DNA of 40,825 bases, taken from contig JANQMF010000084.1 of assembly GCA_028280225.1 (NCBI GenBank), positions 1 through 40,825 on the forward strand, read 5' to 3'. Numbering within the stretch: position 1 is the stretch's first letter; each line of letters opens with the position of its first letter. Below the pieces are notes generated by a model. It saw only the letters and a list, made by a program, of their open reading frames with translations. It was not told the origin of the DNA and did no database searches. Both the position numbers and the translations under genes were made by a program. This document shows, in pieces, positions 30,542 to 40,825 of the stretch. The DNA is from Pseudomonadales bacterium (GTDB lineage: Bacteria > Pseudomonadota > Gammaproteobacteria > Pseudomonadales > Azotimanducaceae).

Positions 30542-32374
30542 ATGTGTGGGATTGTTGGAGCGGTAGCGGATCGAAACGTCCCGCATATTCTTATCGAAGG
30601 CCTCAAGCGGCTGGAATACCGGGGGTATGATTCCGCCGGACTGTTGGTTGTCGACAACAACGGCAAACTGGACCGCCGCCGGCAGGTGGGCAAGGTACAG
30701 GAGCTGGTCAAAGACATCGAAGCCACCCCTATTCTCGGCCGTATAGGCATAGCCCACACCCGCTGGGCAACCCACGGTGTACCGGCGGAACATAACGCCC
30801 ATCCGCACCTGTCCAACAACCGGATTGGGGTGGTACACAACGGCATCATTGAAAACTTCGAGGTGCTGCGGGAAGAACTGCAAGCCTTGGGTTATGAATT
30901 CAGCTCCGATACCGATTCTGAAACCGTTGCCCATCTGATTGATCACTATCTGGATGAAAATACCGATCTGCTGGGTGCCGTGCGCCTGGCGGTCAAGCGC
31001 CTGGAAGGGGCGTATGCTATTGGCGTAATCGACAAGACAGACCCTCAGCGCCTGATCGCCGCCCGTAAAGGCAGTCCGCTGGTGGTGGGTAAGGGCATTG
31101 GTGAAAACTTTATTGCCAGTGATGCCCTGGCCTTAAAGCCGGTGACGGATCGTTTTATCTTTTTGGAAGAAGGTGATCTGGTGGAGATCCGGGCGGACAG
31201 TATTTCCATCTGGAATACCGAAGATGAATCGGTTATCCGCTCGGATGTCCGGGTTGAGATGGGTCATGATGATGTGGACAAGGGCAACTATCGCCACCAT
31301 ATGCAGAAGGAAATTTTCCAGCAGCCGCAGACCCTGCACGACACCCTGGAGGGACGGCTTGGACGCACACAGGTGCTGGAGCAGGCTTTTGGCGTGGCTG
31401 CCAAGGCCATTTTTGATCAGGTGCAAACCATCACTCTGGTGGCCTGCGGGACCAGTTTTTATGCAGCCTCCGTGGCCCGGTATTGGGTGGAGGAATTGGT
31501 GGGTATTCCCTGTCAGGTGGAAATAGCCAGTGAATTCCGCTACCGGAAGTTGGCTAAACAACCCAACGCCCTGTTTGTGTCGATCTCCCAATCCGGAGAA
31601 ACAGCGGATACGCTGGCCGCCCTGCGCATTGCCAAGGACGCGGGTTACCTGGCTACGTTAACCGTCTGCAATGTTCCGACAAGTTCCCTGGTACGCGAAA
31701 GCGATCTGGCCTTAATGATCCAGGCCGGCACTGAAGTGGGGGTGGCTTCGACCAAGGCGTTTACCGCCCAACTGACGGACCTTTTGTTGCTGACCATTCT
31801 GCTGGGGCGGCGTCACGGCATGGACGCAGATTGCGAAGCTACCCTGGTAAAGGGCCTGCATCAACTGGACGATCTGGTGGCTGAAGCCCTTAAATTGGAC
31901 GATACCATTCGGCGCATAGCCGAGCAGTTTATCGACCGCGACCATGCGCTATTCCTGGGCCGGGGCACCATGTTTCCGGTGGCCATGGAAGGTGCGCTGA
32001 AACTCAAGGAAATTTCTTATATTCATGCGGAAGGGTATCCGGCTGGTGAGCTCAAGCACGGTCCCCTGGCACTGGTGGACGACGGCATGCCGGTGGTTGC
32101 GGTGGCCCCCAACGATGAGCTTTTAGAAAAACTGCATTCCAATTTACAGGAAGTACGGGCCCGGGGTGGCCAGCTCTACGTATTTGCTGCGGAAGACAGC
32201 GGTTTTAAAGAAGAACCTGGGGTAACGGTGGTCCCGCTGCCCAAGGTCAGCCCCCTGCTTGCGCCTATTGTTTATGTGGTTCCGCTGCAACTGCTGGCCT
32301 ACCACGTGGCCGTACTTAAGGGTACCGACGTGGATCAACCGCGCAACTTAGCTAAGTCGGTGACGGTGGAGTAA
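30542..32374 (+). CDS. glmS: Glutamine-fructose-6-phosphate aminotransferase (isomerising)
   Basis: The 610-aa enzyme makes glucosamine-6-phosphate from fructose-6-phosphate and glutamine, the first step toward UDP-GlcNAc. Cys2 in MCGIVGAV is the glutaminase nucleophile. Two SIS sugar-isomerase domains follow, with VACGTSFYAA and SISQSGETADTLAALR, and the C-terminus is DQPRNLAKSVTVE. The length matches E. coli (609 aa). Its last codons form the conserved target of the Tn7 targeting protein TnsD, and the gene order changes to accessory genes directly after it. Confidence 0.98.
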   Translation: MCGIVGAVADRNVPHILIEGLKRLEYRGYDSAGLLVVDNNGKLDRRRQVGKVQELVKDIEATPILGRIGIAHTRWATHGVPAEHNAHPHLSNNRIGVVHNGIIENFEVLREELQALGYEFSSDTDSETVAHLIDHYLDENTDLLGAVRLAVKRLEGAYAIGVIDKTDPQRLIAARKGSPLVVGKGIGENFIASDALALKPVTDRFIFLEEGDLVEIRADSISIWNTEDESVIRSDVRVEMGHDDVDKGNYRHHMQKEIFQQPQTLHDTLEGRLGRTQVLEQAFGVAAKAIFDQVQTITLVACGTSFYAASVARYWVEELVGIPCQVEIASEFRYRKLAKQPNALFVSISQSGETADTLAALRIAKDAGYLATLTVCNVPTSSLVRESDLALMIQAGTEVGVASTKAFTAQLTDLLLLTILLGRRHGMDADCEATLVKGLHQLDDLVAEALKLDDTIRRIAEQFIDRDHALFLGRGTMFPVAMEGALKLKEISYIHAEGYPAGELKHGPLALVDDGMPVVAVAPNDELLEKLHSNLQEVRARGGQLYVFAAEDSGFKEEPGVTVVPLPKVSPLLAPIVYVVPLQLLAYHVAVLKGTDVDQPRNLAKSVTVE

Positions 32375-32673: not shown

Positions 32674-35600
32674 ATGCGCATTGTAGATGACAGATTTCGA
32701 CTATCGCCCACAGATCTAAGCCATTTCCTCGGATGCCGTCATCTGACAAGCCTTGATATTCGCTCGGAGAAAGGTGAACTGGATCGACCCGAGCCTTTCA
32801 GCCCTCTCATCAATGAACTGATTGATAAAGGCAAACAACATGAAACCACCTACCTGGCACACCTAAAGGCGCAAGGTCTTAAAGTAGTCGAGTTGGAGGA
32901 AGATGCCGGTTCTCAAGCAACCATCGATGCGATGGAAGCAGGCGCGGATGTTATTTATCAAGCACCGCTACGAAATGACACCTGGTTTGGCTTTGCTGAT
33001 TTTCTAATCAAAGTCCCTACGAAGAGTGATCGTTGGGATTGGTCCTACGAAGTTCAAGATACCAAGCTCGCAAAAGAGACAAGAGGTGGCACGATCGTGC
33101 AGCTCTGCGTGTACAGCTATCTGGTCGGCGAGATTCAGGGTAGGCCGCCAGAACACATGCACGTCGTCGCGCCCGGTAGGAACTATGCGCCGGAGACTCA
33201 TCGATGTGATGACTATGGTGCGTACTTCCGCCTCATCGCTGGCGGATTGCGCGATTTCGCCAACGCGCCAAGCGAAACCTACCCAGATCTAGTTTCGCAT
33301 TGCGACTATTGTAATTGGTGGGCAGTGTGCGAGACGCGCCGTAGAGGCGACGATCACCTCTGCTACGTCGCCGGGCTTGGAGGGAGTCAATTGGCGACGC
33401 TCCGGGACATGGACATCAACACGCTTGAGGCGCTCGCTGAAGCGCCGTCCATCGAAAAACCTGACCGTGGATCTCGCGAGACGCTGCTCAAACTTCAGGA
33501 GCAAGCGCGGATTCAGCTGTGGGGACGTGAATCGGGAGAACCCATTCATGAGATCATAACGCCACTCGATGAACAGCATGGCTTTCGGTTGCTGCCCGAA
33601 CCGACACCTGATGACATTTTCCTGGATTTCGAGGGTAACCACTTTGCTGAACATGGCGTTAGGGAATACCTCACAGGCTATGTAACGCTAGATGGCGAAG
33701 CAATGCAGTACACGCCATTGTGGGCGGATACACAGGCTAAGGAGCAGCAGGCGTTTGAGCAGTTTGTTGATTTTGCACTTAGCGTGCGTGAGCGAAACCC
33801 GAACGCGCACATCTATCATTTCGGCGCTTATGAACCCGTAGCCCTAAAACGCCAGATGGGTTGGTTTGCCACGAGGGAGGTAGAACTCGACCGATTACTT
33901 CGTGGAGAGACGTTTGTAGACCTGCACCGGGTTGTAAAGTCGTCGTTGATTGCCAGCGTGGAAAACTACTCAATCAAGAACCTAGAGCCCCACTTTGGTT
34001 ACGAGCGAACGCAGAATTTGCGAGAAGCGACCCGAAGCCGCAGAGCGATCGAAGTTGCTCTAGAGATTGGAACGCTAGACGACTCTGTTGTGGACCACAT
34101 CGCTCGGGTGGAGGTGTATAACCGAGAAGATTGTGAATCCACGTATCGGCTACAGCAGTGGCTGGAATCGCTCCGTGCCCAGGAGGTTGCCAATGGTGCC
34201 AACATCCCTCGGCCGCAGGTCAGTGATGGAGAGGCCCCCGAAGAGATCGGGGATCTAGATCGAAGGCTGCAGGATCTGCGTGATAGGCTGTTGGTTGACG
34301 TACCCGAGGAGCCTTCAGAGCGATCAACGGAAGAACAGGCGCGTTTCTTACTAGCTCACATGATGGAATTTCACCGTCGCGAGAATAAGGCGGCATGGTG
34401 GGAAAATTACCGACTACGCGATCTGCCCAATGAAGATTACTTGGGAGAACGTCGTGCGGTCGCTGAGCTTGAGTTCATCGAAGTGCTCGATCACAAAGCT
34501 GCTCCCTTACAGCGCTACCGATTCATCAAACAGGATGTTGACGCACGCGTTGATGATGAAGTGAAGGACAACGAGGGGAACAAGATCGGGACCGTGACAG
34601 CGCTTGATCTTGGCAACAGCTTCATTGACATCAAAAAACGCAAGGACACAGCGGGTACGCATCCCACACACGCATATTTTCACAAGGTGATCGGCGCAGA
34701 TGCTATGCGTGAGTCATTGGTACGGTTTGGGGAACATGTCATCTCAAATGGATTGGCCATGGCTTCGCCGTATGCATCGGCTGTTCGATTGTTACTCCGA
34801 TCAGCGCCCAACGGTGAGACAGATAGTGACTCATTGATGTTCACAACCGAAGGTGTTCTTCAGGCCGCAAAACGTCTGATCACCGACATGGAAGGCCAGG
34901 TCCTTGCGATCCAGGGGCCTCCTGGTACAGGAAAAACCTTCACTGGCGCACAAATGATTTGTGAGCTCATTGAAGTTGGGAAATCTGTCGGCGTTACTGC
35001 GGTAAGCCACAAGGTCATTCTGAATTTGCTTGAGAAGGCGGCCGAGGAAGCGGTGTCGCGAGGCTTGGATACTCGCATTGTCCATAAGCCGAAATCGGGC
35101 GAGAAAGAGTATGAAGGCGATAGTGCCATTTCTTATGAGAAAAAGGACCCAAAGATCTTAGAGGGTTTGGCGGATGGCAGTATCGCGGTCCAGGGTGGTA
35201 CAACTTGGCTTTGGTCTAAGCCTGAGTTCGCTGAGCAACAGCTGGATGTGCTGATCGTCGATGAAGCTGGCCAGATGGCATTAGCAAACGTGCTGGCCGT
35301 CGCGCCCGCTGCGAAGACACTGGTCTTGCTCGGCGATCCGCAGCAACTAGAGCAACCTTTGCAAAGCAGCCACCCTGAAGGCAGTGATGTGCCAGCGCTC
35401 ACCCATTGGCTCGGTGCTCGAAATACGATGCCGGAAGATCGAGGTTTGTTTTTGGACGTGACATGGCGTTTACATCCAGACATCTGCCGCTTTACTTCCG
35501 AGGTGTATTACGAAGAACGACTAACCGCGAAACCCGGGCTCGAAAGCCAATCGATCAAGGGAGAAGATCAGCCACTGAGTGCAGGACTCGGTTTTTTGCC

Positions 35601-36090
35601 AGTCGAACACACGGGGAATACAGCACGATCGACCGAAGAAGCTGAAGCGGCCAAGCACGTGGTCGAAAATCTGTTAGACGGCAAAAGGAAATGGACAGAC
35701 AGTGCCCAAGTTCAGCGTCCCCTGGAAGCATCCGACATCTTGCTCGTCGCTCCGTACAACGCCCAGGTCGCGCTGCTCGAAGAAATGCTGCCAATGCTTG
35801 CGGGTCAGATCGGAACGGTCGACAAGTTCCAAGGGCAGGAAGCGCCAATAGTCATCTACTCAATGACTTCTTCATCGCCCGCTGATGCGCCCCGGGGAAT
35901 GGAGTTCCTCTACAATCCCAACAGATTCAATGTGGCGACTTCGAGAGCGAAGGCGCTATTCATACTGATAGGGAGTCCATTGCTACTTGATCCAGAATGC
36001 AAAACCCCGGCGCAAATGAGAATGGCCAATGGTGTTTGCCGGTTCAGAGAGCTCGCCAGGCACTATGATCAACAGGCTTTCTCAAACTGA
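32674..36090 (+). CDS. TM0106-family RecB/Cas4-like nuclease fused to RNase H-like domain and SF1 helicase
   Basis: A 1138-aa protein with three enzymatic modules. (1) Residues about 10-235: a RecB/Cas4-like nuclease of the TM0106 family, with D109, a (D/E)xK variant at D129-T-K131, a QLCVYSYLV helix, and C210, C213, C219 and C230, which may hold an iron-sulfur cluster as in Cas4. (2) About 310-495: an RNase H-like/YprB-type domain, FLDFEG (D318, E320), D416 and YNREDCEST (D486). (3) About 735-1120: a Dna2/Upf1-type SF1 helicase, Walker A GPPGTGKT (K754), Walker B VDEAGQ (D863, E864), GDPQQL, DKFQGQE and TSRAK (R1091). ATG 32674 is preferred; an in-frame TTG at 32635 adds 13 residues. The substrate is unknown; defence or DNA repair are plausible. 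Confidence 0.88.
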   Translation: MRIVDDRFRLSPTDLSHFLGCRHLTSLDIRSEKGELDRPEPFSPLINELIDKGKQHETTYLAHLKAQGLKVVELEEDAGSQATIDAMEAGADVIYQAPLRNDTWFGFADFLIKVPTKSDRWDWSYEVQDTKLAKETRGGTIVQLCVYSYLVGEIQGRPPEHMHVVAPGRNYAPETHRCDDYGAYFRLIAGGLRDFANAPSETYPDLVSHCDYCNWWAVCETRRRGDDHLCYVAGLGGSQLATLRDMDINTLEALAEAPSIEKPDRGSRETLLKLQEQARIQLWGRESGEPIHEIITPLDEQHGFRLLPEPTPDDIFLDFEGNHFAEHGVREYLTGYVTLDGEAMQYTPLWADTQAKEQQAFEQFVDFALSVRERNPNAHIYHFGAYEPVALKRQMGWFATREVELDRLLRGETFVDLHRVVKSSLIASVENYSIKNLEPHFGYERTQNLREATRSRRAIEVALEIGTLDDSVVDHIARVEVYNREDCESTYRLQQWLESLRAQEVANGANIPRPQVSDGEAPEEIGDLDRRLQDLRDRLLVDVPEEPSERSTEEQARFLLAHMMEFHRRENKAAWWENYRLRDLPNEDYLGERRAVAELEFIEVLDHKAAPLQRYRFIKQDVDARVDDEVKDNEGNKIGTVTALDLGNSFIDIKKRKDTAGTHPTHAYFHKVIGADAMRESLVRFGEHVISNGLAMASPYASAVRLLLRSAPNGETDSDSLMFTTEGVLQAAKRLITDMEGQVLAIQGPPGTGKTFTGAQMICELIEVGKSVGVTAVSHKVILNLLEKAAEEAVSRGLDTRIVHKPKSGEKEYEGDSAISYEKKDPKILEGLADGSIAVQGGTTWLWSKPEFAEQQLDVLIVDEAGQMALANVLAVAPAAKTLVLLGDPQQLEQPLQSSHPEGSDVPALTHWLGARNTMPEDRGLFLDVTWRLHPDICRFTSEVYYEERLTAKPGLESQSIKGEDQPLSAGLGFLPVEHTGNTARSTEEAEAAKHVVENLLDGKRKWTDSAQVQRPLEASDILLVAPYNAQVALLEEMLPMLAGQIGTVDKFQGQEAPIVIYSMTSSSPADAPRGMEFLYNPNRFNVATSRAKALFILIGSPLLLDPECKTPAQMRMANGVCRFRELARHYDQQAFSN

Positions 36091-36096
36091 AGCGAT

Positions 36097-36110
36097 CCAA
36101 AAGTCTTTGG
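36097..36110. other. small hairpin between the two convergent island genes
   Basis: CCAAA (36097-36101) and TTTGG (36106-36110) form a 5-bp stem with a four-base loop in the 34-base gap between convergent stops. It lacks a good T-run on either strand, so terminator function is doubtful. Confidence 0.25.
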
Positions 36111-36124
36111 GACTAACTGTTATT

Positions 36125-39100
36125 CTAACGACGTCTAGACCGACCGGTGTAGTGTCTCTGTCGACCTGAGCTTGACTCTCTTTTACAAAGCGTGCATGAA
36201 CGAGCGAATCCGGATTTCAGTTTTGGATCTCGAAACTCCGAGGTTGGTTTTATTGCGCCACACGTACTGCACTTTTTATGTGTGCCTTCTGCCAACCCTT
36301 TTCGGTCTCGTTCCTCTTGTTCACTGATCCCAGAGAGAATTTCATTTTTGTTTTCGGCTGATGCGAGAAGTTCGAACGCCTCGCTTAGCCTGTCGTCTAG
36401 TACCGAAATTGGATCATCGCCCAAATTGAACCGGTTAACGCGGATCATTTTGTAGCCATAGCCTTCGAGCACTGCCTCTCGCTCTACGTCTGCTTCAAGC
36501 AAATAGTGTTGCCAGTTACTGCTATCAATCCTGTCTTGCCGCTCGAAGTGAAACTCAAACCCGTCGTACTCAACAATAACTTGTCTTAGGGAGTCCTCTG
36601 TTCGCAGCCTTAGGAGAAAGTCCACTTTATATGAGGGATGCGAATAGCTCGGGTCAATGCTTTTTAGGTAGTCGCCGATGGGGAACTGGGAAATAATCTC
36701 CAACGATCCTTGGTTTCGTGTAAAGAACGCTGTACTTGCTAGCCATTCCAGAACATGGGCTTCCATCGGGGACTGCGAGTCGGTGTCTTCAACCGAAGGC
36801 ATTGTTTTTGCGTGATCTAGAACGTGCTTGTAATGTTCTAGTACCTGTCGTGCTGCGCCTTTGAACTCTCCAATCGGTTTGGAGCATAGAAATACCAGCT
36901 TCTCTTGGCCTCGGCTGAAAGCGACATTTAGCCGTTGCACCTTTAGTTTGCCTTCGGCGTCCTCTGCCGCCACCGCACTCAGATCAGACGGGAAGATATA
37001 GTTGAGACGGTCATGTTCGCGGGTTGAAACCATTGAGTAAAATATGAGTTCGCGCTCCTCACCCTGACAAGTGTCTGCTGTAAAAACAGCGAGCTTAAGT
37101 CGGTCTCTGAAGTCGTGCGCTTTTGGATGATTCATTACCCGTTCGTTTACTAGGCGTTGTTGCTCCCTAAATGGCGTAATGACCGCGACTGTCGGCGGCG
37201 ATTCCGTTTCAAGAAGGTATTCTAGTCTTTCGAGAATAACTTCTGCTTCCCAGGTGTTGGCGTTTCTTACGTCTTCGAAGCGGTCTGGGTTCTCTGATAC
37301 GACGAATTCCAGAACATCATCTATTGGCTTGCCCCTTAGTTTTAGTACTTGCAGCGCGCCACCGTAGAAATGCTCTGAACTAAAGCTGATAATTTCTGGA
37401 TAGCCGCGGAAGTGCTTACGAAGCATTATCATGTACTCGCTGGTCATCTCGCCGAAGTCCATGACGCTTTTTGTAACGTCGAGGTTTTTAAGGCGGGTAG
37501 CGAGTGCGCTATCCAAGTCTTCTTCGAGGTCGTCGAAAGCGCCGCGTACCTCGTCAAAATATGCGTTGTTCAGCGCCTTGCTCGCCTGTGCGGCTTTGAC
37601 GTTACTAAACTGCTGTCTGTCACCCATCAGCACGGTCTTCTTGCTGCGCAAAATCGCTGGGAGGGCCTGTGCGATAGATACTTGGGATGCTTCGTCGATG
37701 ATTACGAGATCGAACAATCCTTGTTCCAAAGGTATGTAGTTTGCGTAGTCACGAAGCCCTGCGATCATGACTGGGAATGCTTCGCGTAAACTGGAGAACT
37801 TATCGATCGGAAACTTGGATTTGCTTCTTACGATATCACGAAGGGTCTTGGCATCATTCTTTCGGGCTTCTACAAAGTGAACCACGCGTTCATCAATATG
37901 TTTGGTGATTCGCTTAGCACAAAAATCCTCATAGTTACGCTTAAGTCTTAGATAGTCGAAATCAGGCATTTCATTGAACTTGCTCGCGATAGCTGCTTCT
38001 GTTTGGCGCAATGAAATGAATTCAGTTAGCTTTCGCTGATCTGCCTCCGTTGCACTCAACAACTCGATGACCGTCACGGGTATGTCGTACTCGGACAAAG
38101 CGTCGTGATCGAGTGACAGGTAAAGTTCGATTGATTCGTACTCTTCAGGCGCGAGCTCTACGCGAGCACAGACACAAGAGTGCAGCGTCTGAAAATGTTG
38201 CCCATCAATTGCTCTCCCTCGCAAAATATCCTGAAGCTCCTTTCGTATTTTTGCAGCGCGTAGAAGGTCATCGCTGTGGGCCCGGACATCACGAATGTCA
38301 TCCCCCAATATCTCGCGAGCAGTTCGGGAAACGCTGCTTAGTTGCTTCCGCCTAAACAGGTAACCAAAAATTGCCTGTTTCATGTCAACAACTTCGCGTT
38401 GGAGCGCTTGCAACTCTTCGGCGCGTTCGAGATTGATGTTCGGCCATTTCAGCAAAAACTGTTGAAGTTCCTCGGAGACATCTCCAATTGCTGGGCCCAG
38501 TCGTTGCAGGATTGCGAGATCCTGAGTTTGGTCGCCTTCAGAAAGAAACTTACTGAAGAAGGATCGATGTTTGTCGAGCAACGCAAAGAAGCGAGAGAGC
38601 GCGTCGAGCGACTCTATATCATTGTTTGTAAAGTGGTCTAGAGCAGGAACGAGATCTCGGTATTCATCCTCCATCCAGAAATAGGATCCGAGCTGCCGTA
38701 AATCGAGAGATTTGCCGACTTCGATACGGGCTGAGACGCCATCGACCATTTCGCTTTTAATACTTTCGAACTCGTCGTTAAATGCGGATTCAGACGTCTT
38801 GAAACTTTGCAGCGCCGTTTTGATTTTCTGAATCGAGCCTGGCTTTACGATCTTGGCGTAGTTAGCGGAGTCCTTCCCTAGCCGTAGTACCGGATTTACG
38901 TATTCGCCCTCTTCTCCTCGAACTCTCTCAAATACTGCGTTCAGCTTTGATTCTACGACGTCTAGCGCTTCCTTCTTGTCAGAAAGAATCAGTACATTTT
39001 TGCCCTCGCGAATCACATCGAAAGCCAAAGCCGCGAGGCTATGGGACTTACCGCAACCAGGCGGACCTTCAACCACGATCATGCGTGATTTCTTGTGGTG

Positions 39101-40504
39101 AACAGCTTCCATGAGTTTTCTCTGTTCTTCAGCAAGCGGTAGAGGGCTTTCGAACACTAGGCGGTCGGGCACACTTGATTCGCGCCATATGCTGTCAATA
39201 TCCGCCTCAAGGGAGATGGGATTCTTTGAGAGGAACGACCCGATAAGGCTCTCAAAGGCTAAAACCAACGGGTTTTCTGGGTCGAGCCCAGACATAAGCA
39301 ATTCATAGTCATTAACGATTGCTTCGTCTGCGTTGTCGGCGAGGGAGAGGCTCAAGTCATTGCTGATACGAAAGTCTTCACCTTCAGCAAAGTGGGTTGC
39401 GGGCGAAGTGAAATCTAGTTCGCCGTTGCATTGGAGACCGGCCAGTATTCGATGTTGTGTGCGTTCTATCAGATCAAGAAAGGTGTCAGAGTCTTCTTGA
39501 TGAAAAATCCGCTCACTCACAGGATTGGGCACTACTCGTCCAATGGCTCTGGTCAGTTCGCCTGCGATGTAGTCACATGCGGGTTTATTGACATAGACAA
39601 AACTCTGGAACTCCATCCGTACGGAAGCTTCCTCGAATTCGACATCTAGTGGAATGTAGTAGAGTGGGAATTTGTGTGTTTTGTATTGGATCTCACCCAC
39701 GTTTAGATAGATCGTAGTGTTCTCAAGCGTCTGTCGTGATGCAACAAGCTCGCGCACGTCAACAAACAGATCTGCTGCACCGAAGTGTTCGAAGTAATCG
39801 TGGAGTACAAGTTTGACCCTCTGCTCGTCCGTCATGTCCCGAACGATCTGTTCAAAGAGGGACGAATCACTTTTTACCAGAAGATCTGCACACGCGATGG
39901 GTAGCGACTCAGCTACTTCGTCCAAGAGGCGCTCGACGATTTCTTCGGTGTAAGCAGCTAGTTGGCGGTCACCTGCATCATCGCTCGGATCGGATCCGAA
40001 GATTGGCTCTAACAGTGCAATCAAAGGACTAACAACGACGCGCTGCATACCTGATCCAAGCGCTTTTTTCGCATCAACGGTCGCCTCGTCGATGTTTGCC
40101 GTTTCTTTGTGCTTGTTTAGCAGCGCTGTCGGAATTGCTAGCCCACTGGATAAAAGGCGATCCGTTTCAATCTTGTCAATCGCACTGACGATTCCCGCCT
40201 GAACTCCCTTGCTTAAGTCGGCTCGGTACTTCCTGGGGGAAACTCTGACTGTCGCAGTCTGCTGTTCTAGTTTTCCGGATATCAGTGAACGGAATTGGCT
40301 AAATCTCTCTATGCGAACACCAATCCTGCTGTTTTTAGAGTCTCGAAGTGCATACCTACGCTTTGGGGTTCGAACTTTCTTGAAATCAGTTTCAAGGAAT
40401 TCTTTGTAGTAGGCGCAGAGTGTCATCATCGCCTTGCTGATTGGCACTGTCGGTTTATTGCCATCCGGTGTTGGCAGGACTGGCTTGTCTTCAACGTTGC
40501 TCAT
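36125..40504 (-). CDS. Large SF1 helicase with C-terminal DUF559/Vsr-like nuclease and zinc ribbon
   Basis: A 1459-aa protein. Residues 1 to about 450 match nothing I recognise. An SF1 (Upf1/Dna2-like) helicase follows: Walker A GPPGCGKSHS (K486), a long charged helical insert of about 440 residues, Walker B VIIDEASQ (D937, E938), GDRQQF, LRKHFRGYPEI, TADTCQGEE and NVAFSRGQEKL. Then comes a restriction-endonuclease-like domain (about 1245-1375) with an early E1248, KVDFLL (D1295) and VEYDGFEFHF (E1312, D1314), as in DUF559/Vsr proteins. The C-terminus is a zinc ribbon (C1412, C1415, C1437, C1440) of the kind often next to HNH nucleases, then a basic tail. ATG 40504 fits AAGGA upstream better than the GTG before it. 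It resembles Hhe-type helicase-Vsr defence proteins, but no DUF4011 domain was recognised. Confidence 0.85.
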   Translation of the reverse strand: MSNVEDKPVLPTPDGNKPTVPISKAMMTLCAYYKEFLETDFKKVRTPKRRYALRDSKNSRIGVRIERFSQFRSLISGKLEQQTATVRVSPRKYRADLSKGVQAGIVSAIDKIETDRLLSSGLAIPTALLNKHKETANIDEATVDAKKALGSGMQRVVVSPLIALLEPIFGSDPSDDAGDRQLAAYTEEIVERLLDEVAESLPIACADLLVKSDSSLFEQIVRDMTDEQRVKLVLHDYFEHFGAADLFVDVRELVASRQTLENTTIYLNVGEIQYKTHKFPLYYIPLDVEFEEASVRMEFQSFVYVNKPACDYIAGELTRAIGRVVPNPVSERIFHQEDSDTFLDLIERTQHRILAGLQCNGELDFTSPATHFAEGEDFRISNDLSLSLADNADEAIVNDYELLMSGLDPENPLVLAFESLIGSFLSKNPISLEADIDSIWRESSVPDRLVFESPLPLAEEQRKLMEAVHHKKSRMIVVEGPPGCGKSHSLAALAFDVIREGKNVLILSDKKEALDVVESKLNAVFERVRGEEGEYVNPVLRLGKDSANYAKIVKPGSIQKIKTALQSFKTSESAFNDEFESIKSEMVDGVSARIEVGKSLDLRQLGSYFWMEDEYRDLVPALDHFTNNDIESLDALSRFFALLDKHRSFFSKFLSEGDQTQDLAILQRLGPAIGDVSEELQQFLLKWPNINLERAEELQALQREVVDMKQAIFGYLFRRKQLSSVSRTAREILGDDIRDVRAHSDDLLRAAKIRKELQDILRGRAIDGQHFQTLHSCVCARVELAPEEYESIELYLSLDHDALSEYDIPVTVIELLSATEADQRKLTEFISLRQTEAAIASKFNEMPDFDYLRLKRNYEDFCAKRITKHIDERVVHFVEARKNDAKTLRDIVRSKSKFPIDKFSSLREAFPVMIAGLRDYANYIPLEQGLFDLVIIDEASQVSIAQALPAILRSKKTVLMGDRQQFSNVKAAQASKALNNAYFDEVRGAFDDLEEDLDSALATRLKNLDVTKSVMDFGEMTSEYMIMLRKHFRGYPEIISFSSEHFYGGALQVLKLRGKPIDDVLEFVVSENPDRFEDVRNANTWEAEVILERLEYLLETESPPTVAVITPFREQQRLVNERVMNHPKAHDFRDRLKLAVFTADTCQGEERELIFYSMVSTREHDRLNYIFPSDLSAVAAEDAEGKLKVQRLNVAFSRGQEKLVFLCSKPIGEFKGAARQVLEHYKHVLDHAKTMPSVEDTDSQSPMEAHVLEWLASTAFFTRNQGSLEIISQFPIGDYLKSIDPSYSHPSYKVDFLLRLRTEDSLRQVIVEYDGFEFHFERQDRIDSSNWQHYLLEADVEREAVLEGYGYKMIRVNRFNLGDDPISVLDDRLSEAFELLASAENKNEILSGISEQEERDRKGLAEGTHKKCSTCGAIKPTSEFRDPKLKSGFARSCTLCKRESSSGRQRHYTGRSRRR

Positions 40505-40684: not shown

Positions 40685-40825
40685 TTACGACAGCAATTGA
40701 GCGACTAGTTTCGTAAAGGGAACGATATCCTCTCCAACGCTCGCAGCCTCAAGCGCACTCATATACGCAGCACGTTGGTCTACCGTGATGACTGTCCAAG
40801 GGTAGCCGCCAGCGGCCATCATCAA
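40685..40825 (-). CDS. Fic-family protein, C-terminal fragment
   Basis: The window ends inside this gene; 46 C-terminal residues and the stop are present. The translation contains AAGGYPWTVITVDQR, YMSALEAASVGEDIVPF and a leucine-rich end, which is the characteristic C-terminus of many Fic-domain proteins (GGYPWTVIPV...YM.ALE.ASV..DI.PF). Fic proteins usually transfer AMP to target proteins and occur as toxins or stress modulators. The catalytic HPFxxGNGR motif would be outside the window, so activity cannot be judged. It is on the same strand as the large helicase gene, 180 bases upstream of it. Confidence 0.8.
   Translation of the reverse strand: MMMAAGGYPWTVITVDQRAAYMSALEAASVGEDIVPFTKLVAQLLS

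Follow-up and report, generated by a model that had tools for sequence, protein, structure and literature searches.

Two very large nuclease-helicase genes lie side by side in a Pseudomonadales bacterium, and the question they raise is whether they form a joint defence module, as a sequence-only reading of this DNA had proposed, or act independently of each other. The window that we analysed (40,825 nucleotides) is the whole of contig C34 in a 4.44 Mb genome of 242 contigs, and the two genes, P1 (32674..36090, plus strand, 1138 amino acids, aa) and P2 (36125..40504, minus strand, 1459 aa), are located 3′ of the genes for DnaA and GlmS; their coordinates, lengths and convergent arrangement downstream of glmS were all borne out. 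The stop codons are 34 bp apart and, since the genes are convergent, they do not make up an operon. We favour, with somewhat more confidence than doubt, the view that P1 and P2 are innate-immunity genes, independent of each other and spread by horizontal transfer, in a variable region 3′ of glmS, and that they would act mainly as single-protein, DNA-targeting effectors. Architecture, intact catalytic residues, patchy distribution and the neighbours of homologues were all observed directly, and from these we infer the effector role and its mechanism.

To find each gene beside homologues of the other, we ran local tblastn searches of P1 and P2 against the fetched surroundings of 19 other P2 loci and 17 other P1 loci. 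P1 was found at none of the 19 P2 loci, the one match, in L032, being a cross-match to the helicase of the P2 homologue itself, and full-length P2 was found at none of the 17 P1 loci. Both flanks of the P2 locus were short in L032, L033, L042 and L043, as was one flank in L045, L047 and L112, and at these loci a P1 lying farther off could have escaped detection. Similarly, only one of the 17 P2-bearing genomes or records (L031-L047) held a full-length P1 homologue, the SAR11 genome G437 (30% identity, different contig), and among 58 relatives, own genome included, full-length P1 occurred in eight and full-length P2 in the own genome only (7/57 and 0/57 of the others). Thus, a joint module is not supported, because P1 and P2 are not neighbours in the loci or relatives examined. 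The proposed defence role fails for the two as a unit, and it holds up for each gene separately through the genomic context of its homologues, which makes each gene alone probably a good anti-phage candidate; nor are these widely conserved housekeeping singletons, since both are patchy. We note that the P1 and P2 homologues of the G437 genome (about 1.1 Mb) are on separate contigs (L104:8320-11679 and L041:9977-14563), a combination that is surprising for a streamlined genome.

Each protein joins a superfamily 1 (SF1) Upf1/Dna2-like helicase to a nuclease, as first described. By profile search, P1 is a member of the named but functionally undescribed TM0106 family: residues 13-497 matched TIGR03491 at 226.5 bits (cut-off 97.45) over model positions 4-462 of 462, and plasmid proteins annotated as TM0106 family RecB-like putative nuclease aligned with P1 over its entire length. 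We saw no difference between P1 and this family, whose name itself says just "putative nuclease". The protein is conserved across an alignment of P1 and 12 homologues (13 rows, 29-58% identity). Its RecB-like nuclease core (residues 53-147; 32830..33114, plus strand) carries G53/E57, G106xxD109, D129xK131 and Q143xxxY147, of which G53, E57, G106, D109, K131, Q143 and Y147 were invariant and D129 nearly so; we take these residues to be the RecB-type nuclease motif. An RNase_H_2 domain, presumably DEDD exonuclease-like, follows at residues 315-497 (33616..34164, plus strand; PF13482, E 1.3e-15), with D318, E320, D416, Y482 and D486 invariant. The helicase (residues 739-1106; 34888..35991, plus strand) matched AAA_11/AAA_12 (AAA_12, 2.2e-26) and TIGR00376 (2.1e-29, below its cut-off); it is of the Upf1/IGHMBP2 type of SF1, with SMUBP-2, UPF1 and DNA2 chains as the nearest PDB entries, and its motifs were conserved in the alignment. 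Cysteines resembling the Cas4/Dna2 iron-sulphur set are present in P1 and in only part of its homologues.

P2, in contrast to P1, has no full-length model in Pfam, NCBIfam or PADLOC; judged from its domains, it is an uncatalogued member of a known helicase-nuclease kind, in a family that these three databases leave unnamed. Its homologues were 29-37% identical in a 14-row alignment. The N-terminal region (residues 1-455; 39140..40504, minus strand) is without a Pfam match and is mostly predicted at a local distance difference test score (pLDDT) of 75-90 over residues 50-390, and a structure search with it gave no informative fold match. A split SF1 helicase follows (residues 457-1209; 36878..39136, minus strand; Pfam), which matched AAA_11/AAA_12 and UPF1-type SF1 chains and has Walker A separated from DEASQ by a long helical insertion (helices at 548-909 in the predicted model, mean pLDDT 69); the motifs Walker A, DEASQ, CQGEER and QRLNV..SR were all conserved across the 14 rows. 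The nuclease (residues 1245-1381; 36362..36772, minus strand) has the PD-(D/E)xK superfamily fold and its acidic residues. The sequence-only reading had assigned it to the Vsr/DUF559 branch, and of that description the superfamily and the zinc ribbon are present and the branch is just probable; the match to Pfam MTES_1575 was weak (15.1 bits against a gathering score of 38.2), and we take the solved structure 3hrl to be of the DUF559 type. A Cys4 ribbon (CxxC-x21-CxxC; residues 1412-1440; 36185..36271, minus strand) ends the protein and was present in 12 of the 14 aligned rows but missing from the frames aligned for L044 and L046. At two loci (L038:9926-14471 and L046:9968-14136), a small frame of its own, immediately following the P2 homologue, encodes the Cys4 ribbon.

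Comparison with known systems sets both proteins among helicase-nucleases without placing P2 in any named family. P2 shares its helicase region with ProA (NF058533; 116.5 bits) and with the DUF4011 anti-phage protein Hhe (NF042953; PADLOC Hhe; 73.5 bits), but the respective cut-offs of 1500 and 2000 were not reached, and a Pfam search of P2 at E ≤ 0.1 found neither DUF4011 nor DUF3320. The layout of Hhe and ProA is a helicase and then a Vsr-type nuclease in one large protein, as in P2. About 28 kb from a P1 homologue, the same contig (L095:6880-12117; G008:C23) encodes a helicase protein of 1745 aa that partially matches P2 and is presumably Hhe-like. All 14 P2-family members matched the PADLOC candidate PDC-S37 at E ≤ 1e-5 (best 3.6e-47), but the best-matching stretch of P2 spans positions 928-1254 of the 1550-position model, at its helicase end, rather than its full length. 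With Mokosh MkoA, both P1 (4.7e-40) and P2 (9.2e-37) have the Upf1-like SF1 helicase in common. The partners in Mokosh are a kinase or a phospholipase D (PLD) domain, and type II MkoC is a helicase and PLD in one protein; the best stretches of P1 and P2 against MkoA and MkoC were confined to the helicase part, and both kinase and PLD were absent from P1 and P2 (Pfam, PLD at E ≤ 0.1). DNA2 is an SF1 helicase with a RecB-type nuclease, and the P1 helicase matched DNA2 chains (E 1.4e-14), but P1 additionally has the RNase_H_2 domain and P2 carries its nuclease at the opposite end. At title level, the literature searched contained no biological paper naming TM0106/TIGR03491 or PDC-S37 (corrosion papers only); the helicase-nuclease literature searched made no mention of TM0106 under RecB-like/Upf1-like, and among the matches listed there was none with DUF559, COG2251 or COG1112. 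Finally, Hna is described as a single protein of helicase and PD-(D/E)XK nuclease that causes abortive infection (PMC13381803). We rejected Hna as the family of P1 or P2 because its helicase, in an 845-aa protein, is given there as SF2 and DinG-like (PMC13381803), whereas P1 and P2, of 1138 and 1459 aa, are SF1.

P2 homologues are spread over Planctomycetota, Bacteroidota, Acidobacteriota, Bacillota, Pseudomonadota and Candidatus Berkelbacteria and were also found on one plasmid and three viral contigs; L048, a helicase-only match, was left out of this count. Beyond the own genome, none was found among 369 genomes of the class (E ≤ 1e-40) or 398 of the phylum (E ≤ 1e-60), two samples that overlap. 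Phage records gave just two weak helicase-only matches to P2, and viral records scanned with the single P2 sequence gave no match. The P2 tree (14 rows, with good support for 8/11 inner branches) departs from species relationships and crosses phyla: the window P2 groups with Planctomycetota and Bacteroidota copies (support 100/98), and the Paenibacillus P2 groups with Phycisphaerales (100/99). For P1, 11 of the 185 genomes sampled from the class scored above the TIGR03491 cut-off, eight of which have a frame of at least 940 aa (own genome included), and 239 of 72,556 plasmid records matched P1, with 60 matches spanning 80% or more of the protein.

We examined the neighbours of P2 homologues and observed named defence genes at several loci. 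In Paenibacillus (L039), P2 is preceded by TnsA-like, Mu-transposase-C and TniB genes, near TniQ, with PDC-S15 upstream and both genes of Gabija, GajA (4e-185) and GajB (1.1e-132), downstream. Similarly, a bSEFIR gene (6.9e-97) lies downstream of P2 in Cupriavidus (L040), and a terminase-like gene, a recombinase, a reverse transcriptase and HEC-05 (2e-236) are near P2 on a viral contig (L047). On another viral contig (L111:1-14530), HmaA (in part), HmaB and HmaC are directly upstream of P2 on the same strand, an order consistent with P2 being a possible fourth gene of Hma. A batch scan of P2 neighbours (E ≤ 1e-20; 104 of 112 listed proteins from 15 loci, eight frames, seven between 156 and 213 aa long and the eighth 1813 aa, having been left out) gave matches to 41 families, of which 25 were shown; this table and those of the two scans below give family counts without assigning matches to individual proteins.

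The surroundings of P1 homologues were of the same kind. Upstream of P1 we found BrxL, MkoA and PDC-S11 at L093 and PDC-M16A and PDC-M16B at L091, and a type IV restriction gene (mREase_IV) and NERD+UvrD genes lie near P1 at L090. Four of 20 listed plasmid loci were opened, picked before their neighbours were seen. Of these, the Ensifer plasmid L105 (2131-12387) carries a small gene, a DrmD-like helicase gene, a TmtA-like gene and P1 in tight succession, which might be a multi-gene system; L106 has SIR2-HerA beside P1; L107 has a partial E1-E2-like match (1.1e-18) beside P1; and at L108 the single neighbour gene tested had no PADLOC match. A weak TmtA-like match (1.3e-12) also adjoins P1 at L113. 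Separately, we observed Multiubiquitin, E2-like and ThiF genes shortly before the P1 homologue of L107 (4723-12327), with a Fic gene nearby. The batch scan of P1 neighbours (E ≤ 1e-20; 68/68 listed proteins, eight loci) gave 50 families, 25 shown. As a control, we scanned 91/91 genes 3′ of glmS from 12 stretches of relatives at the same threshold, which gave 31 families, 25 shown; every shown family matched 3/91 proteins, all by RTasHel/GajB-type UvrD helicase models, and these are presumably the same three housekeeping UvrD/Rep-like proteins.

A number of observations weigh against independent defence genes. Defence neighbours were pinned at only 4/19 P2 loci and 6/17 P1 loci, the rest having weak or no matches or not being mapped gene by gene, and the 19 P2 loci are not 19 independent events because close pairs are included. 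Among hand-picked neighbours, those without a PADLOC family numbered 2/10 in the L039/L040/L047 set and 3/10 in the set that includes L111 and L113, and for P1 2/10 in the L090/L091/L093 set and 5/10 in the plasmid set. The control is small and from one genus, whereas the P2 loci come from several phyla. The branch of the window P2 in the tree is long, and the tree program rates the placement of such rows as unsure. With regard to base composition (genes placed by hand), the GC content of P1 (0.531) is near the core value (0.538-0.569 for atpA, atpD, glmU and glmS), and the low GC content of P2 (0.489) is a weak argument because dnaA, in the same window, has 0.497. Besides the P1/P2 pair, the sole known defence gene in the window is a possible Fic gene. 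Moreover, some P1 homologues (L088, L089, L092 and L094) sit among ordinary-looking genes, with translations read by eye, and DNA repair or element upkeep therefore has to be weighed as a function.

If one or both proteins were repair or recombination enzymes, with Dna2-like end processing that aids the upkeep of mobile elements, this would fit UPF1, SMUBP-2 and DNA2 as the closest solved helicases, the RecB-like nuclease that P1 has in common with DNA2, and the ordinary-looking neighbours of some P1 homologues. We consider this unlikely, since named defence systems repeatedly adjoin homologues of P1 and P2 and both genes are patchy. We thought it less probable still that the genes are accessories of multi-gene systems, P2 as the fourth gene of systems such as Hma and P1 as an accessory of DrmD/TmtA-type operons: the gene orders at L111 and L105 and the weak TmtA-like neighbour at L113 point that way, but no constant partner gene was seen by eye among P2 loci or among P1 loci, and P1 and P2 in the window stand alone as far as the contig reaches. 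Paired nuclease-helicases acting together as one joint module, an idea encouraged by their adjacency, their similar build and the presence of both homologues within the 1.1 Mb of G437, were rejected on co-occurrence and are highly improbable overall, since the genes are convergent without an operon, are neighbours at none of the other loci examined, lie on different contigs in G437, and differ in GC content.

We therefore return to P1 and P2 as effectors that would act mainly as single proteins. By analogy, the SF1 Upf1/Dna2-like motor might load on invading phage DNA, as single-stranded DNA or other aberrant intermediates of replication or repair, and engagement might then let the attached nuclease cut that DNA. 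P1 would cut via its RecB-like nuclease and its RNase_H_2 (DEDD exonuclease-like) domain, and P2 via a Vsr/DUF559-like endonuclease, probably restrained before the motor starts to move; the N-terminal region and Cys4 ribbon of P2 might contribute to target recognition. The outcome would be either destruction of phage DNA or death of the infected cell. As to the P2 family as a whole, we put at about even the chance that it comprises unnamed, mobile, single-protein anti-phage systems with a novel N-terminus, a split SF1 helicase, a Vsr/DUF559-like nuclease and a Cys4 ribbon, which would have spread across phyla (SAR11 and Candidatus Berkelbacteria included) with Tn7-like elements, plasmids and (pro)phages, and of which at least one follows an Hma operon, where it may be a fourth component.

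If P2 does protect cells, bacterial immunity gains an uncatalogued and broadly spread helicase-nuclease family that extends to SAR11, in whose genomes few defence systems are expected. For P1, such a role would assign a function to a family whose annotation reads just "putative nuclease". Furthermore, the adjacency of two defence-like genes need not imply a module.

The site itself joins core and accessory genes. The core gene glmS (30542..32374, plus strand; phmmer to solved GlmS, E 1.3e-234) stands beside the accessory P1 and P2, and we take its 3′ end to be the classical attTn7 site, the target of Tn7. A search for Tn7-like ends found no repeats of at least 12 bases inside either flank of P1/P2, the contig stopping about 320 bp past P2, and just four ten-base inverted near-matches lie between the flanks (chance level not computed); for a possible Tn7-like insertion at attTn7 in the window, these flank repeat searches turned up no convincing element ends. 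Beyond P2, the C-terminal fragment of a probable Fic protein (40703..40825, minus strand) is truncated by the contig end to its last 41 residues; it gave weak FICD matches (E ~0.08) and no Pfam match, and the own genome searched with the last 266 bases for the remainder of this gene matched only the window itself. The content 3′ of glmS varies among the relatives that we read. In one of them, two recombinase-like frames, read from translations, lie 3′ of glmS (L098:6902-9264), which suggests a candidate insertion hot spot downstream of this gene.

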